DNA of 64,000 bases from contig NZ_VSWH01000001.1 of assembly GCF_009602705.1 (NCBI RefSeq), positions 930,001 through 994,000 on the forward strand. The letters run 5' to 3'. Made by a program: the position numbers and the translations under genes. The stretch is from Chryseobacterium vaccae. Its GTDB lineage: Bacteria > Bacteroidota > Bacteroidia > Flavobacteriales > Weeksellaceae. The notes under the pieces are model-generated. The model was not told where the DNA came from, did no database searches, and worked only from the letters and a program-made list of their open reading frames with translations. Positions 46,628 through 55,154 of this stretch are shown here, piece after piece (the stretch's first letter is position 1; every line of letters begins with the position of its first letter).

Positions 46628-47191
46628 ATGAGCCAGTTTCTGAAAGCCCATATTCAGGAAGTCATCAATTTGAACGATGATGATTTTGAAGCAGTCCTGT
46701 CTTTCTTTACCCAAAAGAAATTCAGGAAACGGCAGTTTCTGATCCAGGAAAACCAGCCTGTTCACGAAATTTACCTTATAGAAAAAGGAATTCTGAAAAG
46801 CAGCATCATTGACGGTACCGGAAAAGAGCACATTCTTCAGTTTGCAGCTCCCAACTGGTGGATTTCAGATTTTGCAGCCTTTTTTAAACAGGAAAACTCA
46901 TCATTGGCTGTTGACTGTATTGAAGACACGGAAGTATATGCCATAACCTACGAAAATTTAAACAGCCTCTGTTCAAAATTTCCGACTATGGAACATTTTT
47001 TCAGGGTGAAGTCTAATTTCGGTTATGTGGCCTTACAACAAAGGATACTTTCATTGATCAGCAAACCTGCCAAAGAGCGGTATGAAGATTTTGTGCGGCA
47101 GTATCCAGGTTTTACAGAGCATATTCCTAAACAGTTTATTGCAAGCTACCTGGGTGTTTCAAGAGAGACATTAAGCAGATTATATTCTTAA
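46628..47191 (+). CDS. Crp/Fnr-family regulator
   Basis: This 187-residue protein has a cyclic-nucleotide-binding beta-roll (about 20-125) and a C-terminal winged helix (about 145-187, HIPKQFIASYLGVSRETLSRLYS). The beta-roll keeps a generic form (YLIEKGILKSSIIDGTGKEHILQFAAPNWWISDF) but lacks a clear RxS phosphate-binding motif, so cAMP binding is doubtful. It lies 11 bp after the arabinose-5-phosphate isomerase gene and just before the DJ-1/PfpI gene, a common neighbour of such regulators in related genomes. It has a strong terminator. Confidence 0.92.
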   Translation: MSQFLKAHIQEVINLNDDDFEAVLSFFTQKKFRKRQFLIQENQPVHEIYLIEKGILKSSIIDGTGKEHILQFAAPNWWISDFAAFFKQENSSLAVDCIEDTEVYAITYENLNSLCSKFPTMEHFFRVKSNFGYVALQQRILSLISKPAKERYEDFVRQYPGFTEHIPKQFIASYLGVSRETLSRLYS

Positions 47192-48696: not shown

Positions 48697-49524
48697 GTGA
48701 GTGAAGGTAAAGACATGTCCTTTCTTGGGCATATTGGAGAATTAAGAGGACATCTTATCCGCTCGATTATTGCGATTATAATTGCTGCTTTTGCTGTCGG
48801 TTTCAATATCAACTGGATCATGGACCATATTTTTTTCGGGCCTACAAGAAATGATTTTCCTACGTTTAAAGTGGTGAACCATTTTTCGAGAATGATCCTA
48901 GGAGAAGACAGTATTCACCTTCCTAAGGACTTTCCGGTTCGTGTACAGAGACTTTACCAGCAGTTCAATGTGATGATGGCTGTTTCTATTTTCGGAGGAA
49001 TGGTAGCTGCTTTTCCTTATATTGTATGGGAATTGTGGCGATTCATCAGTCCTGCTCTTCATCCTAAAGAAAGAAAAAATTCAATTTATATCATCAACGC
49101 AGTGTGGATTCTGTTTATGACAGGTGTACTTTGCGGTTATTTTTTAATTCTTCCATTTGCAGTTAACTTCGGGGTTATTTTCAAAATTTCAGATATTATT
49201 GTTCCGTTATATGATCTGAGTGATTATACTACGCTGTTTCTACAGGTTGTTATAGGGATGGGGGTGATATTCCTCTTCCCGATCCTGATTTACTTCCTGA
49301 CAAGCATCGGCATCCTGACTCCAATGTTCATGAAAACATACCGTCGTCATGCTATCGTTTTGATCATGGTGGTTGCTGCAATTATTACTCCTGCTGATGT
49401 TTTAAGTATGCTGATGGCTGCTTTCCCACTGCTGATCCTTTATGAATTCAGTATCATGATGTGTAATATCACCTACAAAAGGGTTCAGAAGGCTAACGGG
49501 AATCTTCCGGCAGTACAGAAATAG
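48697..49524 (+). CDS. tatC: twin-arginine translocase subunit TatC
   Basis: I choose the GTG at 48697 (then SEGKDMSFLGHIGELRGHL, 275 residues) because the longer frame would begin in the promoter. TatC is the membrane receptor for twin-arginine signal peptides. Six membrane segments are visible (about 20-40, 95-115, 130-155, 180-205, 220-240, 245-262). The conserved FLGHIGELRGHLIRS and FIKP-like SPALHPKERK stretches are present. No TatA/B gene is in the window. Its TAG stop contains the first base of the heptanucleotide array. Confidence 0.95.
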   Translation: MSEGKDMSFLGHIGELRGHLIRSIIAIIIAAFAVGFNINWIMDHIFFGPTRNDFPTFKVVNHFSRMILGEDSIHLPKDFPVRVQRLYQQFNVMMAVSIFGGMVAAFPYIVWELWRFISPALHPKERKNSIYIINAVWILFMTGVLCGYFLILPFAVNFGVIFKISDIIVPLYDLSDYTTLFLQVVIGMGVIFLFPILIYFLTSIGILTPMFMKTYRRHAIVLIMVVAAIITPADVLSMLMAAFPLLILYEFSIMMCNITYKRVQKANGNLPAVQK

Positions 49525-49579
49525 CTTATTGCTTATTGCTTATTGCTTATTGCTTATTGCTTATTGCTTATTGCTTATT
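49524..49579 (+). repeat. tandem GCTTATT x8 array
   Basis: Eight perfect head-to-tail copies of the 7-mer GCTTATT start at the G of the tatC stop codon (TAG, 49522-49524) and end at 49579. The array lies between the ends of tatC and the convergent gwsS gene. A unit of 7 is not a multiple of 3, and the array contains no coding sequence beyond the stop codon. Confidence 0.97.
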
Positions 49580-49661
49580 GTCCTAACTCCGGGTATGATG
49601 TTATATTTTGTTTGAATCTTGATTTTTAAGTGAATTATTCAAATTAAAAACAAGTCTTCAT

Positions 49662-50753
49662 TTATTTTATAATTTCTCTCATTCCGTAGTGGTCTATCGC
49701 TCTCTGCTTTAGGGGGTGGATGCTCCAGTCTTCCCATTCACAGGTTTGCGGATCGTAGCCGCATTTAAGGGGTGCTGAATATTGATCTTCCGGATTTTCT
49801 ATGTAGGCTCTGCAGTCGATACAGACATGACGGAATTCACAATCCTTACATTTGGTGATCTGATCTTTGGTGATATTCCAATATCTCTTAAATTCTGAAT
49901 GACTGACAGCTTCTTCTAAAGCTGTATTCCTGATATTTCCAAAAGACGCTTTCATTGCCGGACAATTTTTGATATTGCCATCAGTATCAATGGAAAGCTT
50001 TCGGTTCAGGCAGGAATTGTGATTGATAGACTCTGTGTAAGTAGGAATATTAACATTGAATAATTGGGGACTCATCAACCCACAATGTAAAGGGCTGTTG
50101 ATTTTTTCTGTAACCTTTACGATCATTCCCATCCCTTCGATTTCGCCCTGCAAAACTTTATTATCATCAGCATTGGTTATGATTAAAGTACTTATTTTTT
50201 TATGTGTGTTCACCAGGCTAACTATTGTATCATAGAATTGTATTTCTTCCTTATTTTCAGGCAGTATCACTTCTATTGACTTCATCTGGGTTGGTTTTAT
50301 TTTTTCGAGTAAAAGCTTCAGCTCTTGGGTAGATATTTCATTAAAAAACCGGAACTGGAGATGGTTACAGCAAAGTTTTTCCAGCTGGGCCAGAAAAGAA
50401 TCATCAAAATAATCAAAATTGGAGTACGTATCCAGAACTGCGTGAGAAATATGAGCGGGAAAGAGCCATTCTTCCGGCATTTTGGGAAAGCGGTTAATTT
50501 CTCTTGAAGTGCAGAAAAAACACAATTCATGCTCAACAAGAAATTCAATATAATCATCCAGAACTTTTTGAGATTCCGGGTTTAATTTTTTCCTGATGCT
50601 ATGGATGTTAAAACAGTCTTTTTTATTGAATAATTCAGCTAAAGACAGTGGAATCAGATGAATTTCACCCCTTTGAAGATCGCATATTGATGCTCTTGAT
50701 GCTCCTTGTACCAACACACAATTGCTGTACAGTTTTAACCATTCAGATTCCAT
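49662..50753 (-). CDS. gwsS: grasp-with-spasm system SPASM-domain peptide maturase
   Basis: This 363-residue protein has a C-terminal SPASM domain with eight cysteines (C248, C264, C302, C305, C311, C314, C331, C338), enough for two Fe-S clusters; SCLNRKLSIDTDGNIKNCPA and KCKDCEFRHVCIDC are the clearest stretches. No CxxxCxxC radical-SAM motif is seen in the N-terminal half, which fits the named SPASM partner of an ATP-grasp maturase rather than a full radical SAM enzyme. It overlaps the 78-residue gene by 19 bp and is the last gene of the cluster. The maturation chemistry is not known. Confidence 0.88.
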   Translation of the reverse strand: MESEWLKLYSNCVLVQGASRASICDLQRGEIHLIPLSLAELFNKKDCFNIHSIRKKLNPESQKVLDDYIEFLVEHELCFFCTSREINRFPKMPEEWLFPAHISHAVLDTYSNFDYFDDSFLAQLEKLCCNHLQFRFFNEISTQELKLLLEKIKPTQMKSIEVILPENKEEIQFYDTIVSLVNTHKKISTLIITNADDNKVLQGEIEGMGMIVKVTEKINSPLHCGLMSPQLFNVNIPTYTESINHNSCLNRKLSIDTDGNIKNCPAMKASFGNIRNTALEEAVSHSEFKRYWNITKDQITKCKDCEFRHVCIDCRAYIENPEDQYSAPLKCGYDPQTCEWEDWSIHPLKQRAIDHYGMREIIK

Positions 50754-50971
50754 ATCACCAGTTTTGAATAAGGTTTGTAAAAAGGGACACCTCTTTCCAG
50801 TCTGGCATCATACCTGCCTAATACTTCTAAGAAGCTATCCTGAACATCATCTGTCTGTTTTTTTCGCAATATCCAGACCTCCCAGAAAGCGGAATTCAAT
50901 GGAAGATTATGCCTGTTTTCTTCGGCCCAGCTTATGAAATCTCTCCGGACCTGCTCTCTCTTTTCATTCAT
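50735..50971 (-). CDS. unrecognised 78-residue protein inside the grasp-with-spasm operon
   Basis: This basic-to-neutral 78-residue protein (REQVRRDFISWAEENRHNLP, VLGRYDARLERGVPFYKP) has no signal peptide, no membrane segment and no family I recognise. It starts two bases after the ATP-grasp stop (TAA, CA, ATG) and overlaps the start of gwsS by 19 bp, so it is translated with both. The tight packing suggests an accessory part of the system, such as a leader-binding or scaffold protein, but that is inference. A helical N-terminal half is likely. Confidence 0.75.
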   Translation of the reverse strand: MNEKREQVRRDFISWAEENRHNLPLNSAFWEVWILRKKQTDDVQDSFLEVLGRYDARLERGVPFYKPYSKLVIWNLNG

Positions 50972-50973
50972 TG

Positions 50974-51960
50974 TTATTGGTTTAAAAATCGGGCAATGCT
51001 TCGTTCAATATCATAGTTGCAATTATCCGAAAGCCATTGGAACTGCCCTACAGGATTGGCTTCCAGAAAAACATATTCTTTTTTATCTGTATAAATCATA
51101 TCTATGGAAGCACAGTTAATGTCCAGGCTTTTCATCAGTTTTTTTATTTTTTTGGTTTCTTTTCCCGGCAACAGATAAGGCACACAGCGGTTTGGCCGTT
51201 CTGTATCATAATTTCTGAAATCTACTTTGGTTCTTTCATTAGCCTGAGAAAAAATAGCCATAGAATACAGTTTGTCGTCCAGGTAAAAAATGCGCAGTTC
51301 ATATTCTTTTTCAATATATTCCTGCAGAAAAATATACCCTTGTGATATATTACTTCTAATTTCCTTTAACTGCTGAATATGAGCATCTGTAACAATGGTG
51401 GGAGGAACTTTTACCAATATATCAAACTCTTCATCCCAATTAATCTTTATATCATCAAGCATGACATCTTTAACAATGATTTTCTCATGAGACCTGTAAA
51501 AATCTCCTATCACTGATATATTGGAAGATACCAGTGTTTCAGGAATCAGAAGCCCTGCTTCTTTTGCTTTCTGAAGGACTTTTAATTTATTGATATTATT
51601 ATCGCTTCTTTTATTTAACCGCTGTTTGAACAGTTGGTCATACCAATCAATATACGCTTCATGAATGGCTTTTTCTTCAAAATTATATTGATCATAAACG
51701 TTTAAGAATATGTTTCTGACTGATTGATTATCATATTGATTCAATATAGATCCCGGATGATACCCATGATCTTTTAAGTACCCTCTCCTATACCAATATG
51801 AATTATCATTGATAGGATTTGTGTGATTGGAAATATGCATACTTTCCACTTCAAAATCCTCATTTCTATCACATACCGCAGATGGATATTCAAAATAGAT
51901 CCAGTCCAGAACATCATTGGTGGAATAATCCTGCTGAATGGAGTTAATTTTTATGTTCAT
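50974..51960 (-). CDS. gwsG: grasp-with-spasm system ATP-grasp peptide maturase
   Basis: This 328-residue protein is an ATP-grasp ligase of the kind that forms ester or amide side-chain links in ribosomally made peptides. The C-terminal grasp half has RPNRCVPYLLP (about 255-265) and the metal ligands D287 (ASIDMIYTD) and E300/N302 (EYVFLEANPVGQFQWL). The N-terminal half is helical and should read the leader. Its start follows a strong hairpin (51984-52005) after the second precursor. It begins the run gwsG, 78-residue gene, gwsS. The assignment rests on the pairing with the SPASM protein and the two precursors. Confidence 0.9.
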   Translation of the reverse strand: MNIKINSIQQDYSTNDVLDWIYFEYPSAVCDRNEDFEVESMHISNHTNPINDNSYWYRRGYLKDHGYHPGSILNQYDNQSVRNIFLNVYDQYNFEEKAIHEAYIDWYDQLFKQRLNKRSDNNINKLKVLQKAKEAGLLIPETLVSSNISVIGDFYRSHEKIIVKDVMLDDIKINWDEEFDILVKVPPTIVTDAHIQQLKEIRSNISQGYIFLQEYIEKEYELRIFYLDDKLYSMAIFSQANERTKVDFRNYDTERPNRCVPYLLPGKETKKIKKLMKSLDINCASIDMIYTDKKEYVFLEANPVGQFQWLSDNCNYDIERSIARFLNQ

Positions 51961-51983
51961 ATTTCCCTGAATAAGCAGAAAAT

Positions 51984-52005
51984 GTTCCGCCCTTTAAGAC
52001 GGAAC
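51984..52005 (-). terminator. intra-operon hairpin between precursor and maturase genes
   Basis: On the minus strand GTTCCGTC pairs with GGCGGAAC (one G-U) around a 6-nt loop, followed by only a weak T run (ATTTT). It is a strong stem with a poor tail, so it may partly stop transcription or protect the upstream precursor RNA. Confidence 0.65.
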
Positions 52006-52014
52006 AATTCTTTA

Positions 52015-52254
52015 TTAAAACCTTACAATATGCCATCTGCCGTCAATACAATATTCCCTGCGCATAAGAGTTCCTTCACTGTTAAATTCCTCACGGTCTT
52101 CTGAATAAGTATAGGTACCATCTTTAAGTCCGTCAATACCTTTAGCAATATAACTTCCTCCTCTGGTTGCACATCTTTCACCACCTTTAACTGTTCCGAG
52201 CTGTGGTCTTGTTAAGGTTTTGAATTTGTCTGAGTTTAAATTTTCAAGTTTCAT
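52015..52254 (-). CDS. grasp-with-spasm precursor peptide, copy 2
   Basis: This 79-residue peptide has a leader LENLNSDKFKTLTRPQLG with GG at 24-25 and a 54-residue core. The core keeps DGTYTYSEDR (45-54), NSEG (58-61) and EYCIDGRW (67-74) from its paralog. The abundance of Thr, Ser, Asp and Glu in DGTYTYSED is what ATP-grasp ester or amide forming enzymes use. I count about 60 of 79 identical residues to the paralog at 52345-52584. It lies 54 bp before gwsG with the hairpin in between. Processing after GG is inferred. Confidence 0.82.
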   Translation of the reverse strand: MKLENLNSDKFKTLTRPQLGTVKGGERCATRGGSYIAKGIDGLKDGTYTYSEDREEFNSEGTLMRREYCIDGRWHIVRF

Positions 52255-52344
52255 GATTTCAATATTTTTAGTTAGTACATCCTGCTTTGTTACGTTGGGA
52301 TGCTTTTTAAAAGTTTTTTCAGCCTGTTACTGAACATTTTGTCA

Positions 52345-52584
52345 TCAGGCACGTATGGTATACCATCTGCCGTCAATACAGTACTCCATATGCATGGTTT
52401 GTCCTTCACTATTAAGTTCCTGACGGTCTTCAGAATAGGTATAAGTTCCATCTTTAAGGACATCAAGCCCCTTAGCCGTATAAGTTCCGCTTTTAGTGGC
52501 ACGTCTGTCACCACCTTTCACGGTTCCCAACTGTGGTCTTGTCAGGGTTTTGAATTTGTCTGAGTTTAAATTTTCAAGTTGCAT
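52345..52584 (-). CDS. grasp-with-spasm precursor peptide, copy 1
   Basis: This 79-residue peptide has almost the same 25-residue leader as copy 2 (one substitution, Q2 for K2) and a diverged core (DRRATKSGTYTAKGLDVL, then the shared DGTYTYSEDR, NSEG and EYCIDGRW segments). Leader conservation with core change is the usual mark of a precursor pair served by one set of enzymes. It is first in the cluster after the Crp/Fnr gene and has a leader hairpin upstream (52605-52630). Family assignment is by context and leader type. Confidence 0.82.
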   Translation of the reverse strand: MQLENLNSDKFKTLTRPQLGTVKGGDRRATKSGTYTAKGLDVLKDGTYTYSEDRQELNSEGQTMHMEYCIDGRWYTIRA

Positions 52585-52604
52585 AATTTTGTCATTTTTA
52601 GTTC

Positions 52605-52630
52605 ATACACTCCCTTCCGCCGGAGTGTTT
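52605..52630 (-). promoter_or_regulatory. leader hairpin upstream of the precursor genes
   Basis: On the minus strand ACACTCCGGC pairs with GGGAGTGT (bulged) in the 5' leader of the first precursor, about 20 bp before its ATG, without a T run. It may protect the transcript or sense a factor; a role is not proven. A second palindrome, AGGCCT, lies 50 bp farther upstream. Confidence 0.45.
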
Positions 52631-52706
52631 CAGCGGTTTCTTCTCTTTTCTTAGGCCTTAGAAGAATAGGCCTCAATTCGTAGCTACTGAATATTTTTTA
52701 ATTTTA

Positions 52707-53297
52707 TCAATCCTGTTCATTCGCTGTTATACCCCGTTTCAGGCGGCTAAGCGAAGGATTTTCCATTCCCAGGAACGAAGCGATATAATACTGTGGAATA
52801 TGGGACGGTAGATCCGGAAATTCTTTAAGAAACTGCATATACCGATCCCGGGCACATAAAAAAGAAATGGTTTCCATCCGGTGTAAAAGAGCAAAAAAAG
52901 ATTCTTCGGCAATAATGCGCCCTGCCCTTTCCCATCCTTTGGAAATCTCATATAAATTTTCCAGATCATCTACATTAATCACCCAGATGGATGATTCTAT
53001 AATCGCTTCAATATAATAGGTACACTGAATCTTTTTGGTCATACTCCTCAAAGCCGTAACCAATTCTCCTTTTCCACTCAGGAAAAGAATATGTTCTTTA
53101 GAATGATCATCAATAAAATAGGTTCTGAAAATCCCTTTTTCTATAAAACCCAACTGTAAGCAGATATCTCCACGCTGGTTAAAATAGGAGCCTTTCTCGT
53201 AGGTTACTTTTTTCCATAGGTATTTTGACATTTCAATTTCTTCTTCACTCAGCTTCAGGTTTTCTTTTAAAAATGAAAGTAATGCTTCAGAGTTCAT
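52707..53297 (-). CDS. Crp/Fnr-family regulator adjacent to the grasp-with-spasm cluster
   Basis: This 196-residue protein has a cyclic-nucleotide-binding-like beta-roll (about 25-120, LGFIEKGIFRTYFIDDHSKEH) and a C-terminal winged helix (about 150-196, HIPQYYIASFLGMENPSLSRLKRG). The roll lacks a clear phosphate-binding RxS motif. It is about 120 bp upstream of the first precursor gene and on the same strand, so it may be co-transcribed with or regulate the cluster. It differs clearly from the other Crp/Fnr protein in the window at 46628-47191. Confidence 0.9.
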   Translation of the reverse strand: MNSEALLSFLKENLKLSEEEIEMSKYLWKKVTYEKGSYFNQRGDICLQLGFIEKGIFRTYFIDDHSKEHILFLSGKGELVTALRSMTKKIQCTYYIEAIIESSIWVINVDDLENLYEISKGWERAGRIIAEESFFALLHRMETISFLCARDRYMQFLKEFPDLPSHIPQYYIASFLGMENPSLSRLKRGITANEQD

Positions 53298-53491
53298 AGG
53301 CGTATCCTGTTATCTTTTCAAAGTTGCTTTTCTCAAAAATATTTACATTTTTCATATGTTTCATTAACAAATGTTAACCGAATAAGAAAAAGTTCAATAT
53401 TCTACAAATGAAAATACATTAAAATCAAATATTATTAACAACTCTAATAATCAATCATAAAAAAACATCTTTCAGTTGGTATTAATTTTTC

Positions 53492-53499
53492 TATTTTTG
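53492..53499 (+). promoter_or_regulatory. -7 promoter box of the M1 peptidase gene
   Basis: TATTTTTG matches TAnnTTTG and lies 23 bp before the ATG at 53523. Confidence 0.5.
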
Positions 53500-53522
53500 A
53501 AAGATTATTAATGCAATTCACT

Positions 53523-55154
53523 ATGAAAAAGCTGACGTTCACTCTTCTCTTTATTTCAGGGTTTGCTTTCGGGCAGGTCTTTGAAAAAAACAGAGTTTTC
53601 ACCAAACAGGACACTTTAAGGGGTTCTGACACCCAGTTCCGGAACTTTTGGGATGTAAAAAAATACGACCTTTCTGTAGAACCAGATTTTGAGCAGAAAA
53701 GTATTAAAGGTTACAATAAGATCAGCTTTGAAATCACCAAAGATGTTACAAATCCTGTTTTCCAGATCGATTTGCAGCAGCCTATGAAAGCAGATCAAGT
53801 GGAAGGCAGCTTTCCCATTACCGGTTATAAGCAGGATGGTGATTTTATTTTCGTAACATCTAAAAAGAAATTTAAAAAAGGTGAAAAATACACCATGAAT
53901 GTCACGTACTCCGGAAACCCTGTGATTGCTAAAAAAGCACCCTGGGACGGAGGCTGGATCTTCACCAAGGATGAAAAAGGGAATCCCTGGATGAGTGTTG
54001 CTGATCAGGCAGAAGGCTCGTCACTCTGGCTGCCTACCAAAGATATCTGGAGCGATGAACCGGATAACGGTATTATTATGAAGATCATCACTCCCAATGA
54101 ACTTGCAGGAGTAGGAAACGGAAGACTGATTGATAAAAAAACCGAGGGCAGTAAAACAATATATACATGGGAAGTGAAAAATCCGATCAATGACTATTCT
54201 ATCATTCCGAATATCGGAAAGTATGTCAACTTTAAAGACACTTTTAACGGTGAAAAAGGAAAGCTCGATCTGGATTACTGGGTACTCGATTATAATCTTG
54301 AAAAAGCAAAAAAACAGTTCCAGCAGGTAAAGCCAATGCTCTCAGCGTTTGAATACTGGTTCGGACCTTATCCTTTTTATGAGGACTCCTACAAACTCGT
54401 AGACTCTCCGTATCTCGGCATGGAGCATCAGAGCAATGTGGCCTATGGAAACGGATATCAGAACGGATACCTCGGAAGAGATCTTTCGGGAACCGGAGTT
54501 GGCCTGAACTGGGATTATATCATCATCCACGAAAGCGGCCATGAATGGTTTGCCAACAATATTACAGCGAAAGATATGGCAGATATGTGGATTCATGAAA
54601 GCTTTACCATGTATTCCGAAGTTCTTTTCACTGAAAAATATATGGATAAAAAATCGGCAGATATTTATGCCCAGGGACTTCATAACACGATTATGAATGA
54701 TATCCCGATCATTGGCCATTACGGAGTAAGAAGTGAAGGAAGCGGTGATATGTATCCTAAGGGAGCCAGTATGATCCACACGATAAGACAGGTCATCAAT
54801 AACGATGAAAAGTTCAGACAGATCTTAAGAGGAATGAACAAGGATTTCTATCATAAAACTGTTACCACCAAACAGATTGAGGATTATATTTCAACCAAAG
54901 CAGGAATTGATCTTTCAAGTATTTTTGATCAGTATCTGAGAACGACCAAAATTCCGACCCTGGAATACTCACAGGATAACGAAACTTTAAAATTCCGCTA
55001 TACCAATACGGTAAAAAATCTTAAGCTTCCGATAAGAATTGACGGGGAACAAACCATTAACCCGACAGAGCAATGGCAAACGGTAAAGTTAAAGAAAAAT
55101 ACCCCGGTTGAGTGGAATAAGAACTATTATGTATATTATATAAAAGCTCAGTAA
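53523..55154 (+). CDS. secreted M1-family metallopeptidase
   Basis: I use the ATG at 53523, which gives a signal peptide (MKKLTFTLLFISGFAFGQ) and 543 residues. An N-terminal beta domain (about 30-250) binds the peptide. The catalytic zinc site HESGHEWFANNITA (336-349) with MADMWIHESFTMY supplies the third ligand. The family GxMEN motif appears as GMEHQS (about 299-304), the variant common in Bacteroidota. The C-terminal helical domain is short. It should work in the periplasm or outside the cell as an aminopeptidase. An M61 peptidase gene follows. Confidence 0.95.
   Translation: MKKLTFTLLFISGFAFGQVFEKNRVFTKQDTLRGSDTQFRNFWDVKKYDLSVEPDFEQKSIKGYNKISFEITKDVTNPVFQIDLQQPMKADQVEGSFPITGYKQDGDFIFVTSKKKFKKGEKYTMNVTYSGNPVIAKKAPWDGGWIFTKDEKGNPWMSVADQAEGSSLWLPTKDIWSDEPDNGIIMKIITPNELAGVGNGRLIDKKTEGSKTIYTWEVKNPINDYSIIPNIGKYVNFKDTFNGEKGKLDLDYWVLDYNLEKAKKQFQQVKPMLSAFEYWFGPYPFYEDSYKLVDSPYLGMEHQSNVAYGNGYQNGYLGRDLSGTGVGLNWDYIIIHESGHEWFANNITAKDMADMWIHESFTMYSEVLFTEKYMDKKSADIYAQGLHNTIMNDIPIIGHYGVRSEGSGDMYPKGASMIHTIRQVINNDEKFRQILRGMNKDFYHKTVTTKQIEDYISTKAGIDLSSIFDQYLRTTKIPTLEYSQDNETLKFRYTNTVKNLKLPIRIDGEQTINPTEQWQTVKLKKNTPVEWNKNYYVYYIKAQ

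Follow-up and report, generated by a model that had tools for sequence, protein, structure and literature searches.

A grasp-with-spasm graspetide operon of Chryseobacterium vaccae and a proposed non-radical role for its SPASM protein

We analysed a 64,000-nucleotide stretch of the Chryseobacterium vaccae genome (C1:930001-994000 of a 5.1-Mb genome in two contigs; henceforth the window) and found that it carries a grasp-with-spasm graspetide locus, i.e., a published kind of gene cluster for ribosomally synthesised and post-translationally modified peptides (RiPPs). A check of open reading frames (ORFs) placed two precursor genes, the ATP-grasp gene gwsG, a small gene of the LPL family and gwsS in one minus-strand operon running from position 52584 to 49662 of the window; family matches and ORFs thus bear out the original prediction of such a cluster with two paralogous precursors. 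The operon is real, under selection and ordinary in kind, and the Chryseobacterium gene set probably makes two small cross-linked peptides. Our proposal, to which we give a probability of roughly 0.6, is that GwsS in this graspetide operon binds the leader and works alongside GwsG without radical chemistry of its own. The results obtained here concern gene content, families, conservation, selection, predicted fold and the absence of a radical S-adenosylmethionine (SAM) motif, and the chemistry is a proposal.

The SPASM partner and its SPASM-less homologue

GwsS matches TIGR04193 at 322 bits (cut-off 175). Fold matches to its predicted structure (predicted local distance difference test, pLDDT, 90.6) point to an RRE domain at residues ~4-88, a radical-SAM-type barrel at ~95-245 (boundary set by eye) and a SPASM domain with C224-C331, which contradicts the earlier description of the protein as SPASM-only. 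In the model, residues 4-88 adopt the PqqD-like winged-helix fold of RRE domains. Comparison of the GwsS sequence with solved structures, as a single sequence (best E 0.3) or as a profile, gave nothing significant. We then considered 94 full-length GwsS proteins (i.e., those of 100 loci minus six duplicate records and the fragment L099, plus the window; record L059 was excluded from the 100 loci and the same record included as L114). The SAM-cluster motif CX3CX2C was found in none of them, the window included, and canonical SAM cleavage is therefore not expected. Taken with the modelled RRE domain, this makes it most likely that GwsS binds the leader and serves GwsG as a partner without radical chemistry.

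The eight SPASM cysteines, by contrast, are kept in all 94 proteins, as they would be if GwsS were a working redox or thioether-forming maturase whose SPASM clusters make a second modification, e.g., on the Cys of EYC in the precursor core. Such activity is suggested by the family name (“peptide maturase”) and by Makarova et al., whose survey, drawn on here from part of its text, also reports a conserved Cys in many precursors of its branch 5 (PMC8939145); in the window, both cores have a Cys within EYCIDGRW and that of precursor B has a second one. We nevertheless regard a maturase as unlikely, given the missing CX3CX2C motif, the lack of Cys in core types I', II, III and IV (see below) and a conserved SPASM-less homologue with the same gene order, which is the main reason for preferring a partner role over metal chemistry.

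The second contig, which is 22.7 kb long and perhaps a plasmid, carries this homologue: an ATP-grasp gene is followed there by a 76-aa ORF and by a gene for a 256-aa GwsS homologue, as in the operon. The ATP-grasp is TIGR04192-like (155.8 bits, below cut-off), the 76-aa ORF in the LPL slot has VPLFF, and the GwsS homologue stops before the SPASM domain, matching positions 2-214 of the 342 in TIGR04193 (52.6 bits, below cut-off). C. indologenes CI_885 has a 96% identical, 256-aa counterpart on a 22.4-kb contig (nonsynonymous divergence, dN, 0.016; synonymous divergence, dS, 0.209), and within 1.0-1.5 kb downstream no SPASM-type Cys pattern occurs in any frame of either genome. These observations suggest that an RRE and a barrel can make up the conserved portion of the partner. 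Among the 171 genus genomes, no other has a SPASM-less homologue above 33% identity. The second-contig locus (C2:12000-22718) stands beside genes for an M50/daptide-type intramembrane protease and fatty-acid/ketosynthase-type proteins, and a megablast search with 10,700 of the contig’s 22,718 bases returned no plasmid kin in PLSDB. Separately, GwsS homologues of 28-36% identity occur on three PLSDB plasmid records, two from Elizabethkingia anophelis and one from Hymenobacter (NZ_CP016375.1, NZ_CP071549.1 and NZ_CP114769.1), so that gws systems can be plasmid-borne.

We would give slightly less than even odds to a class-wide version of the proposal, in which the SPASM protein of all grasp-with-spasm systems is a pseudo-radical-SAM protein, i.e., an RRE with a barrel that lacks the SAM cluster, structural auxiliary iron-sulfur clusters and an obligatory role as leader-binding partner of the ATP-grasp. 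Our searches of open-access text found no statement of this reading. The NCBI description of TIGR04193 may already note the lack of a radical SAM domain. The published survey names the SPASM partner a radical SAM enzyme (PMC8939145), a label at odds with sequences that lack the canonical motif and with a model that points to leader binding. If the class-wide reading is true, a large unexplored branch of graspetides would depend on such a partner, and the 22.7-kb contig would encode a SPASM-less form of this machinery that has lost its metal domain.

The 78-aa protein encoded directly upstream of gwsS, unnamed in the original prediction, has NLPLN and is thus an LPL protein, a family of small proteins encoded directly upstream of the SPASM gene and proposed as PqqD-like by Makarova et al. 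2022 (PMC8939145). It reached no Pfam or NCBIfam model at cut-off, and a protein search returned two close relatives. The slot upstream of gwsS holds a small ORF in all 100 loci (six records counted twice); 55 of these ORFs have an LP-like motif, and in 90 the last 30 residues contain [KR].[IYV][SGVTI][KR] (FYKPISK-like), compared with 5.1 in shuffles, with the longest ORF taken in each slot and the wrong one picked at least in L067. We noticed no mention of this C-terminal motif in the consulted part of PMC8939145. Such constancy, and a position directly upstream of the SPASM gene, would fit the published suggestion that LPL, not GwsS, is the PqqD-like leader binder, with GwsS as its dependent maturase. 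The analogy with PqqD is weakened, however, as GwsS appears to carry an RRE-like domain of its own and LPL is modelled as two helices without an RRE fold, albeit at low confidence (pLDDT 73); we consider an LPL binder quite improbable.

Precursors, GwsG and the predicted ester

Precursors A and B are 76% identical over 79 residues (leader 24/25, core 36/54), with a leader of the pattern M-x-LExLxSxKF...GG. DGTYTYSEDR and EYCIDGRW are indeed identical in both, although such shared motifs are by themselves little informative in paralogues this similar. Neither precursor reached a Pfam or NCBIfam family at cut-off, and the precursor family is not covered by any library model at its cut-off. A search of 5.8 billion proteins (E <=0.001) found, besides the window’s own paralogue, one other sequence cluster (90%). 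Run against the 171 genus genomes, a profile built from 16 precursors gave 27 matches in 12 of them: 24 were strong, all in the nine genomes with the GwsS lineage of the window, and three were weak and partial (positions 1-49 of 74), each beside another gws locus. The same profile detected no further precursors elsewhere in the C. vaccae genome at E 0.001.

The conserved pattern sought in precursors of homologous clusters was found in this clade. Specifically, 22 of 23 precursors have a Thr at the fifth residue past the GG/AG/GA site, and one aligned acid column is occupied in all 23 (the precursor of L051/L071, missed by our regular expression, also has Thr at +5). Grouped by eye into eight core types, each represented by one sequence (mean pairwise core identity 23%; nine Chryseobacterium loci including the window), the cores have Thr at +5 in 7/8 types, equalled by none of 5000 core shuffles, and fill the downstream acid column in 8/8, as did 1 of 150 realigned shuffles (10 of 150 filled at least seven). 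In precursor A the conserved pair is T30 and D53 (the Asp of SEDR), and likewise in B; we predict from this conservation that GwsG makes a T30-D53 ester in both. Among the crosslinking candidates proposed earlier, the SEDR acid held, as did a Y..G.W-like pattern near the C-terminus that recurs in several core types; DGTYTY is not general among the relatives, and the Thr at +5, the most conserved core residue, had been missed.

GwsG matches TIGR04192 over positions 3-318 of 318 (E 2.9e-64) at 217.4 bits, 12.6 below the cut-off of 230, which is a curated naming threshold and not a structural feature; grasp-with-spasm membership therefore rests on GwsS and gene order. The GwsG motifs of the window are common without being universal: among 87 GwsG proteins longer than 270 aa, 55 have DFR, 83 have D[FIWYV]R and 84 have a FLExNPxG-type motif.

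Under the proposed mechanism, the N-terminal RRE of GwsS, judging by its fold, would bind the precursor leader, and GwsS without its SAM-cluster motif, together with LPL, would present the precursor to GwsG as a non-radical partner. GwsG and ATP would then join side chains, most likely T30 and D53, with a loss of 18 Da, and further rings between T/S and D/E of the core may form. The leader would be removed by a double-glycine peptidase-exporter whose gene lies at another genomic site. Several points limit the support for this proposal: the SPASM-less homologue is divergent and comes from two genomes, and so lends support and not proof; the shuffle statistics ignore common ancestry and have guide value; and for core types II and VII two alignments pick different acids.

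The locus, its relatives and export

Table 1. Features of the operon and its upstream region (positions in the window).
Feature	Position	Strand	Evidence
Crp/Fnr-like regulator gene, cNMP_binding domain	52707..53297	-	PF00027 3.1e-9
Precursor A, 79 aa; leader 1-25 with GG end, core 26-79	52345..52584	-	
Precursor B, 79 aa; predicted ester T30-D53 as in A	52015..52254	-	
Stem-loop between precursors and gwsG	51980..52009	-	inverted repeat
gwsG, ATP-grasp graspetide synthetase, 328 aa	50974..51960	-	TIGR04192 match; DFR, FLEANPVG motifs
LPL-family small protein, 78 aa; NLPLN, FYKPYSK	50735..50971	-	motifs
gwsS, 363 aa: RRE + radical-SAM-type barrel + SPASM	49662..50753	-	TIGR04193, predicted fold

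From the Crp-like gene to the LPL gene, intergenic gaps are 122, 90, 54 and 2 nt, and the LPL gene overlaps gwsS by 19 nt (Table 1). The locus has neither a transporter gene nor a cluster-23 gene, and the orthologous locus of C. indologenes CI_885 is down to one precursor, as might be seen in a relic, silent or in decay, that has no exporter of its own. We hold this to be very improbable: all frames are open, the dN/dS ratios of five genes against that locus (0.05-0.24) indicate purifying selection, and eight related loci likewise lack a local exporter.

The operon stands between tatC and an M1-type peptidase gene (53511-55154). An adjacent transporter is absent as originally predicted, but an adjacent peptidase is not; all 13 relatives sampled have tatC in the 6-8 kb retrieved ahead of this peptidase gene and no gws gene there, so the operon occupies a variable slot. 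Several of the 13 carry gws loci elsewhere in the genome, and five have a 981-991-aa ORF in this interval. Directly after tatC the window has a perfect 7-base tandem repeat (GCTTATT, 8.1 copies, 49524-49580). A second Crp/Fnr-like gene lies near the operon (46628-47191), and a gene like it is found near tatC in four of the 13 relatives without the operon there.

The Crp/Fnr regulator predicted upstream of the precursors is present. Its ortholog in C. indologenes CI_885 is 95% identical and sits at the corresponding place, and the best identity among 58 sampled relatives (CI_885 being outside the sample) is 38%; as a conserved part of the system the regulator was rejected, because a response regulator of 242/243 aa (LytTR-like by eye) takes its place in six of the eight related loci. 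An Rfam scan of window 49000-54000 gave no match above the gathering score. The stem-loop (z -2.6 in the window; -0.6 to -5.7 over nine loci, L072 being weakest, against mononucleotide shuffles) might be an attenuator by which more precursor is made than enzyme.

In 25 of 93 related loci, a gene like those for peptidase-containing ATP-binding cassette transporters (PCATs) starts no more than 4.5 kb downstream from the start of gwsS. The C. vaccae genome has two PCATs elsewhere (C1:4063237 and C1:4609969) and a third C39 match. One region, C1:4056000-4071000, combines a PCAT, an HlyD-like adaptor, a VKOR-thioredoxin protein and two small GG peptides; it is likely a bacteriocin-type export cluster and could serve the operon peptide in trans.

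SPASM-partner graspetide loci are common in Chryseobacterium, with GwsS matches in 136 of 173 genomes. Full-length GwsS proteins 51-86% identical to that of the window occur in eight other genomes, all in the order precursors, gwsG, LPL, gwsS. BLAST with two examples detects a cluster-23 gene in at least 47 of 93 loci, and no ORF fills its slot in the window or in these eight loci, which also have no PCAT-like gene in the fetched 14 kb. A candidate tenth member of the lineage (G027, with a C-terminal GwsS piece at 56%) was rejected as it belongs to another gws locus, with gwsG and gwsS matching in pieces and other precursors. In a GwsS tree of the 94 proteins, the window and C. indologenes CI_885 group together (100/100) beside a cluster-23-bearing Bacteroidetes locus, apart from the other seven Chryseobacterium loci, whose clade stands near Taibaiella; this arrangement thus arose in or reached Chryseobacterium two or more times, or there was more than one loss of cluster 23.

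Two further grasp-with-spasm loci of the C. vaccae genome (C1:4356000-4374000 and C1:4739000-4756000) each have a different GG precursor and a cluster-23-like gene, named by position and BLAST between loci, neither being in a Pfam family. Two other gws loci (L182 and L183) represent a different variant, in which the GwsS-LPL-GwsG order is kept, the ATP-grasp is shorter (247 aa) and an ORF of 394 aa, glycosyltransferase-like by eye, follows.

Comparison with known systems

The consulted text of the survey describes branch 5 as 190 loci with highly diverse GG precursors, a SPASM protein, LPL and, in almost all, a cluster-23 protein (PMC8939145). Branch 5 is probably the same set as group 14, which falls outside the two groups characterised by Carter et al. 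2026 (PMC13097080, likewise consulted in part). Hence the class is already in the literature, and the word undescribed in the original prediction can apply to the product, as searches of open-access text found none described (subscription papers were outside the search). The locus offers a small test set of two precursors, GwsG, GwsS and LPL, with one predicted bond and a SPASM-less comparison in the same genome.

With other grasp-with-spasm systems the window shares a GwsS above cut-off, an ATP-grasp, GG precursors upstream, LPL directly upstream of gwsS and its place in Bacteroidota; it differs in a GwsG below cut-off, precursors below library cut-offs and the lack of cluster 23 and of a local exporter. 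The RRE-radical SAM-SPASM maturases CteB, SuiB and TigE have the same domain order and predicted fold as GwsS, whose family, unlike them, lacks CX3CX2C. Microviridin and chryseoviridin ligases of known structure are ATP-grasp enzymes sharing sequence with GwsG (AMdnB, 7.7e-16; CdnC, 3.3e-13); their systems have leaders and cores unlike the window precursors and, to our knowledge, no SPASM partner. Chryseoviridin is a separate Chryseobacterium system (PMC8939145). Finally, rosaritide (MirA/B/C), in the text consulted, has in common with the window an ATP-grasp synthetase and a co-encoded partner with an RRE-like domain, whereas that partner, MirC of Micromonospora, is SurA/PpiC-like and GwsS is radical-SAM/SPASM-like (PMC13097080).

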